From assembly GCF_000439455.1 (NCBI RefSeq), contig NC_021833.1, positions 496,001 to 560,000 of the forward strand: DNA of 64,000 nt, in the 5' to 3' direction. The DNA comes from Spiroplasma diminutum CUAS-1 (GTDB lineage Bacteria; Bacillota_I; Bacilli_A; Mycoplasmatales; Mycoplasmataceae). Made by a program: the position numbers and the translations under genes. Of the stretch, positions 34,186 to 35,828 are shown in pieces (position 1 is the first letter of the stretch; every line of letters starts with the position of its first letter). Below the pieces are notes generated by a model. That model had not been told where the DNA came from and made no database searches. It saw nothing but the letters and a program-made list of their open reading frames with translations.

Positions 34186-34290
34186 CTAATTTTGAACTCT
34201 TACTAATATTAAAACTAATGGTCCTTGAATTAAAACTGTTCAAATTGCAATTAATATTGCTCTTAAAATATAATCTTTTATAAATCCCAT
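34186..34290 (-). CDS. 34-residue membrane peptide
   Basis: A short frame reads MGFIKDYILRAILIAIWTVL and ends in VRVQN, mostly one hydrophobic helix with a Trp coded by TGA. The ribosome site is a strong AAAAGGAGG at 34308-34300, preceded immediately by 17 A. It follows the 116-residue gene by 65 bases and ends before a terminator. Its function is unknown; a peptide of this size may be a phage-like, bacteriocin-like or toxin-like membrane protein. Confidence 0.55.
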
Positions 34291-34706: not shown

Positions 34707-34713
34707 ATTTTTT

Positions 34714-34822
34714 TCTCCTTTTCTTTTGTAATCAGGAATAAAAAAAACTAGTACAAAGTACTAGTTGAAATTTTATATGTAAAAATAAAGAACTAGATCT
34801 GTACCAGTGCTTTATTACCTTA
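34714..34822 (-). promoter_or_regulatory. Attenuator-like leader, copy 1
   Basis: Read on the minus strand, a first stem pairs AATAAAG (34816-34810) and ACTGG with CTAGT and CTTTATT (34788-34782), around the loop TACAGAT. A second stem pairs AACTAGTAC with GTACTAGTT (34766-34758 with 34754-34746, loop TTT) and runs into a T tract, so it is a terminator. The ribosome site and ATG of the 116-residue gene follow. CTGGTAC of the first stem can alternatively pair with GTACTAG of the second. The same leader is at 35721-35828. A TATAAT lies just upstream, at 34832-34827. Confidence 0.6.
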
Positions 34823-34862
34823 ATTGAATTATAGCATAGATTATTCTATTTCATTTAGGTTT

Positions 34863-35714
34863 TTATCATCTTTTTTCCATATTTCTACTTGAAATGATAG
34901 TATCTTTATGTTTAAAAATCATTTTTAATTGTTCCATTTCATCTTCTAATGTTTTTATTTTTTCTTCAGCATCTTTTATTTCAAAATTTAATGTTCTTAA
35001 CTCTACTTGTTTTTGTTTTAATTCAATTTTTAATTCTTCAGTTTCCCTAGTTTGTTCAACATACATATTTTTAAAACTTCATCTTCTTTACTTAAAAATG
35101 CTTTTGAATTTAAAACATTAATTTTGTTTATAGCAAATTTTGATTTATCAGTTATTTTTTCAATATTTGAAATTAGTTCATCAATATCTTTTGAATATTC
35201 TTTTATTTTTTTTCTTCTTAAATCTAATTTATTGCTAATTCATAAAGGATTATAATTTCTTTTATTTTCAATATCTGAAAATTGATTATATAATTCTCAA
35301 TGTTTTCTCTCAAAATCAGTTAATTTATAAATTTCTCCTGTTTGGATCAATTTGATAAATATCTTTCTTGATTTGCTGATCATTGGATAAATTGAATATT
35401 TTAAAATTTTAGAATCTTTAATTGTAACTGAACCAATTGTTTGTCTTAATCTTTTATTATTTACAACATAAATATCTATTTTATTTAAGTTTTGATAATA
35501 TCTATCTTTTATTTTTCTTGTACTTTGAATTTTTCATCCTCTATTTTCTATTTTTTTAGATTTAAATACTCCAACAAGAGAATAATTTTTATCTATTTTT
35601 TTTAATTTCAACTACATTTCTTAATTTATTATCTCCAGAAATATAATTACCATTAGGATCATCTTCTTTATGAAAATCCCCTGGAAAAAATGTAACCATT
35701 TTCTTTATTTTCAT
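34863..35714 (-). pseudogene. Coiled-coil protein gene, frameshifted twice
   Basis: The frame starts MKIKKMVTFFPGDFHKEDDP. It shifts in a run of A near 35600 and again near 35070. Joined, the three parts give a product of about 280 residues: a basic globular N-terminal part (LVGVFKSKKIENRGWKIQST) and a strong coiled-coil C-terminus (TEELKIELKQKQVELRTLNF). One stop-free reading exists only if one base is added or removed at each A run. It carries copy 2 of the leader upstream. The family is not recognised; the gene looks recently inactivated. Confidence 0.6.
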
Positions 35715-35720
35715 TTTTAT

Positions 35721-35828
35721 TCTCCTTTTCTTTTGTAATCAGGAATAAAAAAACTAGTACAAAGTACTAGTTGAAATAATATATATAAAAATAAAGAACT
35801 AGATCTGTACCAGTGCTTTATTACCTTA
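35721..35828 (-). promoter_or_regulatory. Attenuator-like leader, copy 2
   Basis: Nearly identical to the leader at 34714-34822. The hairpin arms are unchanged: AACTAGTAC at 35752-35760, GTACTAGTT at 35764-35772, and the AATAAAG/CTTTATT stem. The differences are confined to the linker between the two stems and to one base in the T tract. It ends at the ribosome site AAAGGAG of the broken coiled-coil gene. Confidence 0.6.

Follow-up and report, generated by a model that had tools for sequence, protein, structure and literature searches.

A repeated leader with two competing predicted RNA folds in the remains of a conjugative element of Spiroplasma diminutum

Introduction

Two nearly identical leaders of about 110 nt stand close together in the genome of Spiroplasma diminutum CUAS-1, each in front of a gene, which raises the question of what kind of element they are and whether their base pairing is kept in relatives. 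How the transfer genes of Mollicute integrative and conjugative elements (ICEs) are silenced and switched is largely unknown, and the one ICEA paper that we searched raises regulation only as an open question. An earlier note, made from the letters alone, had considered a new cis-acting RNA plausible at this place. Here, we analysed a window of 64,000 nt (NC_021833.1, 496,001 to 560,000), from whose first letter all window positions are counted, together with related genomes (designated G) and loci (designated L).

Results

Two copies of a transcribed leader

The two leaders are both on the minus strand and are 96% identical in alignment (Table 1). The changes are confined to the linker and to the length of the U-tract, the stems being left intact as the earlier note had it, and both stems that it described, P1 and T2, were found, everything reading on the minus strand. 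The block common to the two copies begins at the predicted transcript start (TAAGG) and extends as far as the Shine-Dalgarno sequence; beyond it the identity drops sharply, on one side within the promoter and on the other at the start codon. As the identity ends at these two points, the repeated unit is the transcribed leader. The spacing between the −10 box and the leader is the same in sister genomes, where the boxes are TATGTTATACT and TGTTATTATAT.

None of 200 dinucleotide shuffles folded as well as the leader (z = −3.6). At minimum energy, the alternative structure is predicted, with the arms of P1 paired to those of T2. No copies other than these two were found in the 945 kb of the genome. 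When the leader detector was run on 65 genes of the window, the pilin-like gene behind leader copy 1 was the single one to pass.

Table 1 Features of the leader region, in window coordinates
Feature	Position	Strand	Basis or remark
VirB6-like (Mbov_0396-type) ICE membrane protein, 34-aa stub	34186-34290	-	N-terminus match
Pilin-like ICE gene, 116 aa	34356-34706	-	Sub-threshold T4SS_pilin and Mbov_0395 matches; sister-genome homologues
Leader copy 1	34713-34822	-	Predicted transcript start to just past Shine-Dalgarno
Shine-Dalgarno AAAGGAG, copy 1	34715-34721	-	Sequence
Strand a'	34734-34757	-	T2 3' arm, U-tract and following ATTCCT; partner of strand a
T2 U-tract	34747-34740	-	Run of T's after GTACTAGTT
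T2, intrinsic-terminator-like hairpin	34746-34766	-	AACTAGTAC-TTT-GTACTAGTT
P1 hairpin	34784-34816	-	AATAAAG/CTTTATT and ACTGG/CTAGT, 7-nt loop, then TTT
Strand a, about the first 22-25 nt of the transcript	34797-34821	-	P1 5' arm and loop; complementary to a'
Predicted transcript start, copy 1	about 34821	-	Just past -10 box
TATAAT -10 box, extended -10 TGCTATAAT, copy 1	34828-34833	-	Sequence; sister-genome position
Broken ICE coiled-coil gene, three frame-shifted pieces	34863-35714	-	Match to G019 gene
Leader copy 2	35719-35828	-	P1 35822-35790, T2 35772-35753

Remains of an ICE behind the leaders

The leader region is flanked by glyA and an nrdG/nrdD pair (gene names from translations). 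The pilin-like protein shares 46.5% identity over 86 aa with the ICE pilin of G019 and is clearly homologous to proteins of four congeneric genomes, and the VirB6-like stub is 60% identical over 30 aa to an Mbov_0396-type N-terminus. The pieces of the coiled-coil gene, of 41, 193 and 67 aa, correspond to residues 1-37, 35-221 and 223-280 of a G019 gene of 290 aa, which is intact and carries a leader of its own. Because of these three genes, the segment between glyA and nrdG/nrdD is taken as the remains of an ICE, of which nothing else is retained in the window. The earlier note had called the coiled-coil gene broken, which is right, the gene being an ICE relic in three pieces, while its "membrane protein" turned out to be the pilin-like ICE protein. 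The context, a decayed conjugative element whose intact relatives have one leader per operon, was not foreseen.

Type-A leaders in sister genomes

Homologues of the leader, referred to as type A, were sought by a pattern scan and by a covariance model built from 16 copies. In G005 and G016 a diverged copy immediately precedes the pilin, and in G019 and G013 one stands before the pilin or the short gene ahead of it. Inside one complete ICE of about 30 kb, G019 holds ten copies, placed at the heads of operons that encode the MobL relaxase with VirD4/TraG, the Mbov_0397 VirB4, the pilin with VirB6 (Mbov_0396), the Mbov_0399 surface protein and others. This ICE is of the Mbov_0395-0399 type, with NF045975, NF045889, NF045892 and the pilin PF18895 above the cut-off. 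Further partly decayed sets or single copies occur in G017, G004, G005, G016, G013 and G011.

In these relatives, the leader lies between the −10 box and the ribosome site of ICE operons, and the order is −10 box, strand a, P1, linker, T2, U-tract, ribosome site and start codon. A T2-like hairpin followed by a U-tract is present in six diverged type-A sequence groups. In most relatives a T-run directly follows P1 as well; on this account P1 resembles a terminator there and may itself stop transcription.

Among the 295 genomes of the phylum that were searched, strong covariance-model matches are restricted to this genus. The matches outside it were weak (about 38 bits or less) and were not counted as homologues, and opposite-strand matches at true copies, caused by the near-palindromic hairpins, were discarded. 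A nucleotide search of 60 relatives with the leader gave noise only, except for a 69% match in G019 that is a true homologue, and nothing useful came from searching phages at the DNA level, or plasmids, viral contigs and GTDB contigs with the pilin protein.

A long-range helix carries the covariation

An antiterminator-like pairing of CTGGTAC with GTACTAG, as put forward in the earlier note, is supported. It forms one section of a more extended complementarity between the entire 5' end, AAGGTAATAAAG.ACTGGTACAGA, and TTTGTACTAGTTTTTTTTATTCC(T). The resulting helix a:a', of 19 bp, joins the 5' end of the transcript to the 3' arm of T2, its U-tract and the following bases. In the window, the duplex energy is −20.0 compared to a shuffled mean of −9.7, a value equalled by 4 of 2000 shuffles. 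Across the 16 aligned type-A leaders, 92.8% of the cells are paired, with both-sided changes in 6 pairs (23 cells). The covariation of a:a' amounts to 0.224 against 0.141 ± 0.013 after shuffling, none of 500 shuffles reaching it, and slid partners give 0.098 at most.

P1 and T2 exhibit no covariation in the same 16 relatives, where no pair has changed on both sides and the hairpins are almost invariant; on reading the sequences, both-sided change in P1 and T2 is seen only between the window and the remaining ones. The compensatory changes that had been predicted for the two hairpins are thus absent there and are located in a:a' instead. The outcome named beforehand as fatal to a new RNA, exact recent duplications without covariation, is not what we observed, the homologues being diverged and their a:a' helix covarying.

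The apical loop of P1 is wholly different between lineages (TACAGAT, CAGCG, TGGAA, TTTTGTAG, CGATA), and its match to the downstream strand is kept. A "sensor-like" P1 in the sense of a ligand sensor is therefore unsupported, only the downstream match being conserved. The P1 loops of six lineages (TACAGA, CAGC, CAATA, TGGAA, TTTTGTAG, TTGTAC) each match the T2 of the same leader: the cis assignment is the unique best of 720, with 36 contiguous pairs compared to a mean of 12, and for 21 unique copies the cis total was reached by none of 100,000 shuffles. This complementarity is lost in a few copies, namely at 1009.8 kb of G013 and in one copy each of G017 and G019. In many variant copies the helix is preserved by G-U pairs, which indicates selection on RNA. 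The predicted energies of the two competing folds, P1 plus T2 and a:a', are close, and both folds draw on the same bases. On this comparative evidence, the mutually exclusive pairing a:a' is under selection.

Unrelated leader sequences with the same layout

Upstream of VirB4 in other ICEs of the family, we found the same layout with unrelated sequence. Pairing of the a:a' kind was matched by 3 of 2000 shuffles in G031, by 0 of 2000 in the second ICE of G013 and by 2 of 2000 in G064. Three more leader types were recognised, each as a multi-copy set within its own ICE, and two of the three come from other genera. Type B occurs in G013 and G019 (GTTCACAAGAGATATGTTAGGAA...TTTTCTAACATATTTTTGAGAAC), type C, with seven copies, in G031 and type D, with five, in G064. 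Strand a' is present in types B-D, with no clear T2 terminator. In the ten type-B copies compared, all positions of a 13-bp core are paired; G-U variants occur, as does a single compensatory change on both sides (GTTAG/CTAAC to GTCAG/CTGAC).

When strand a was scored against the downstream region for nine lineages of types A-D, the cis combination was the unique best of 362,880 permutations, a strong but inexact measure since the nine lineages are not all independent; the cis sum is −213.6 kcal/mol, the mean being −113.5 kcal/mol. Strand a is better conserved than a' within an element, with core mean identities of 0.957 versus 0.879 in type B and 0.978 versus 0.904 in type C. Orthologous operons, those of VirB4, bear different leader types in different elements. 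Two ICEs, with leader types A and B, reside in G019 (L180/L181, 236-270 kb of G019; L174/L175, 222-258 kb of G013), so the leader sequence tracks the element and not the host. Judged from these sequences, each transfer element has its own version of the leader.

Beyond the family, the survey covered the flanks of VirB4. On some 55 VirB4 loci outside the sets the detector gave about two stray matches; two isolated matches, at L164 and L205, were judged to be due to chance. No such leader adjoins VirB4, within 1.5 kb on each side, at the VirB4 loci of Mycoplasma (f7) and of the citri clade.

Searches for known RNA families and regulators

At the curated scores of Rfam, whose families include the T-box, the riboswitches and the C4 antisense RNA, nothing matched in the window, and two tRNAs were the sole matches in 120 kb of ICE sequence. 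A relaxed threshold produced chance-level matches only. The earlier view that the leader is not of a known T-box, purine or preQ1 type agrees with this result, and the proposal of a new cis-acting RNA is strengthened by the mutually exclusive folds and their absence from Rfam.

Antitermination by a NusG paralogue of the LoaP/RfaH type was rejected, as each of nine genomes has exactly one NusG. No element-borne regulator common to types A-D was found at phmmer E<1e-6, a search that small, fast-evolving proteins could escape. The proteins common to the elements of types A-D are only the relaxase, VirD4/TraG, VirB4, VirB6 and the Mbov_0399 protein.

Discussion

The leaders are an uncatalogued group of self-pairing RNAs that head most operons of transfer elements in Spiroplasma-like bacteria. 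They probably decide between an early stop and the continuation of transfer-gene transcription. We consider it moderately probable that the leader acts as a promoter-proximal attenuator of transcription in an ICE, with two competing folds; here it is present on two genes of a decayed ICE. In the window and in relatives, a hairpin with a U-run lies between promoter and start codon, both as P1 and as T2, which is the arrangement of an attenuator.

A transcript predicted to start just past the −10 box would begin with strand a. This strand could either close into the local P1 hairpin, with T2 forming downstream and U's after both, or pair with a'. With P1 formed, T2 would be free to form and transcription would stop before the gene, so that RNA polymerase would normally meet P1 and T2 and mostly stop. 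If strand a were kept out of P1, it would capture a', T2 would be blocked and the polymerase would enter the operon. Promoters, transcript starts and terminators are predicted from the sequence, and the termination, its trigger and any action in trans are inferred. Since the same leader precedes the majority of operons in an ICE, a single signal could control them jointly.

Several points count against attenuation. P1 and T2 are conserved in sequence in the aligned relatives yet do not covary, loop complementarity is lost in the few copies mentioned, and neither a trigger nor a shared regulator protein emerged from the searches. Moreover, P1 should form first and is followed by its own U's in most relatives; a', which is made later, cannot prevent termination at P1, and in types B-D, where a' follows the P1 U-tract and T2 is not clear, a:a' cannot rescue P1 termination in the same transcript. 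This difficulty leaves room for trans action, as in P4 CI and IsrK, or for an effect on how stable the read-through mRNA is or how it is processed.

The former would make the leader a same-strand antisense RNA of the phage P4 CI or Gifsy-1 IsrK kind, which we regard as unlikely. A short RNA ended at P1 and containing strand a would accumulate and act in trans on the a' of read-through transcripts from every operon of its element; the result would be autoregulation, or immunity against a second copy, and each element type would have a code of its own. The near invariance of strand a within an element, while a' varies with pairing kept, counts in favour of this, as do the joint divergence of a and a' between elements and the different leader types on orthologous VirB4 operons; the failure to find a common element-borne regulator protein also speaks for it. 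IsrK and CI are published precedents for a terminated or processed short RNA with a downstream complement (PMC4825925), and here, too, a complementary stretch follows further down the transcript. However, strand a is part of each read-through transcript, so that cis should beat trans unless the leader is processed, and the odd copy at 1095.8 kb of G019 pairs in cis and not with its sisters. An extension of the same idea, rather unlikely in our judgement, is that ICEs of the Spiroplasma/Mesoplasma type use an element-wide, protein-free RNA code: most operons would begin with the same terminated strand a and have a matching a', with one code per element, and the short RNAs would act in trans, coupling all the operons and telling self from a second copy, much like phage immunity.

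It is distinctly doubtful that P1 simply serves as an early terminator or insulator and that a:a' forms only in read-through mRNA, where it would hide the 5' end from exonuclease or make an RNase III site of about 20 bp. In all types a' lies downstream of the P1 U-tract, which would let the helix form only after read-through, and the helix, some 20 bp in length, starts only a few bases from the predicted 5' end; but the T2 and U-tract kept in six type-A sequence groups, and the P1 kept within each element, are left unexplained. The near-palindromic type-A hairpins (CTAG), the inverted repeat made by the ends a and a' and the sharp ends of the window copies on both sides would also suit a feature of the DNA, either an operator palindrome situated after the promoter or a MITE-like unit, bounded by terminal inverted repeats, of which copies were placed before many genes. 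This we hold to be very improbable: G-U pairs maintain the helix in many variants, in the operons that were inspected the unit sits between the −10 box and the ribosome site, and the layout recurs in unrelated sequences.

The attenuator reading has its nearest relatives among the RNAs of mobile elements. P4 CI and IsrK also have a mobile-element leader, an early terminator or processing, and a downstream complement on the same transcript, and alternative structures control the following genes; each is one locus per element, experimentally shown to act in trans (PMC4825925). In contrast, the present leaders number up to ten per element, belong to Mollicutes, are predicted from sequence and have no match in Rfam. 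The canT RNA of Tn916 likewise governs terminator read-through in the conjugation genes of an ICE; it is a single RNA within a 452-nt fragment and acts processively on distant terminators (PMC11658703), whereas the leaders here are of about 110 nt, have their own terminator-like hairpins and are repeated before each operon. The conAn system of pLS20, with the protein ConAn1 and an RNA at the head of one operon of more than 30 kb, similarly places the control of conjugation operons with intrinsic terminators in a leader (PMC8955417); no small protein common to the leader-bearing elements was found here. Both are known RNA controls of conjugation operons in Gram-positive elements, and each stands singly at the front of a long operon. 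Processive antitermination of this type, with action on many later terminators, does not fit a set of ten leaders that each serve one operon and bring their own terminator-like hairpins.

The T-box, purine, preQ1 and PyrR-type attenuators and riboswitches of Firmicutes set a terminator against an antiterminator between promoter and start codon. The leaders differ from them in matching no family and in a "sensor" loop that keeps only its complementarity to a'. Attenuators normally retain their sensor sequence; here it is unusual that a and a' diversify together under a constant layout, only the pairing being kept. What is new is an attenuator-type leader as an element-wide set whose sequence shifts from element to element. 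It is a concrete element, not in Rfam, in several ICE lineages and several genera; it would add a Mollicute case to RNA control in mobile elements beside P4, IsrK, canT and conAn, and it yields specific base changes that can be tested.

Additional features of type-A leaders and their elements

Many type-A leaders outside the window have a palindrome, TTTTCCCYRGGGAAAA, that is perfect or nearly so and stands just ahead of the ribosome site. It lies between T2 and the ribosome site at L077/L078 (G019), L082 (G004), L084 (G016), L087 (G005) and L079/L081 (G017). Neither window copy has it, nor do some of the G019 copies, and it could be an operator or an extra hairpin. In derived copies at L137 (2703-2773, plus strand), L134 (8155-8224, minus strand) and L087 (15228-15308, minus strand), one hairpin with a U-run is left, P1 and T2 being seemingly fused or one hairpin lost. 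A leader-like P1 hairpin is located at 8431-8338 (minus strand) of L133, on the plasmid-sized contig 1 of G004 (11,138 bp), behind a ParA-like operon, of which it may be just the terminator.

Within the type-A ICE of G019, L077 encodes (1100887-1099121, minus strand) a protein of 588 aa that by eye is reverse transcriptase-like, with a YKDD motif. Upstream of the first leader, G004 (436-441 kb, L082) and G017 (460-463 kb, L079) present a conserved block with a ParB-like protein of 253 aa and several small conserved proteins, before which there is no leader.
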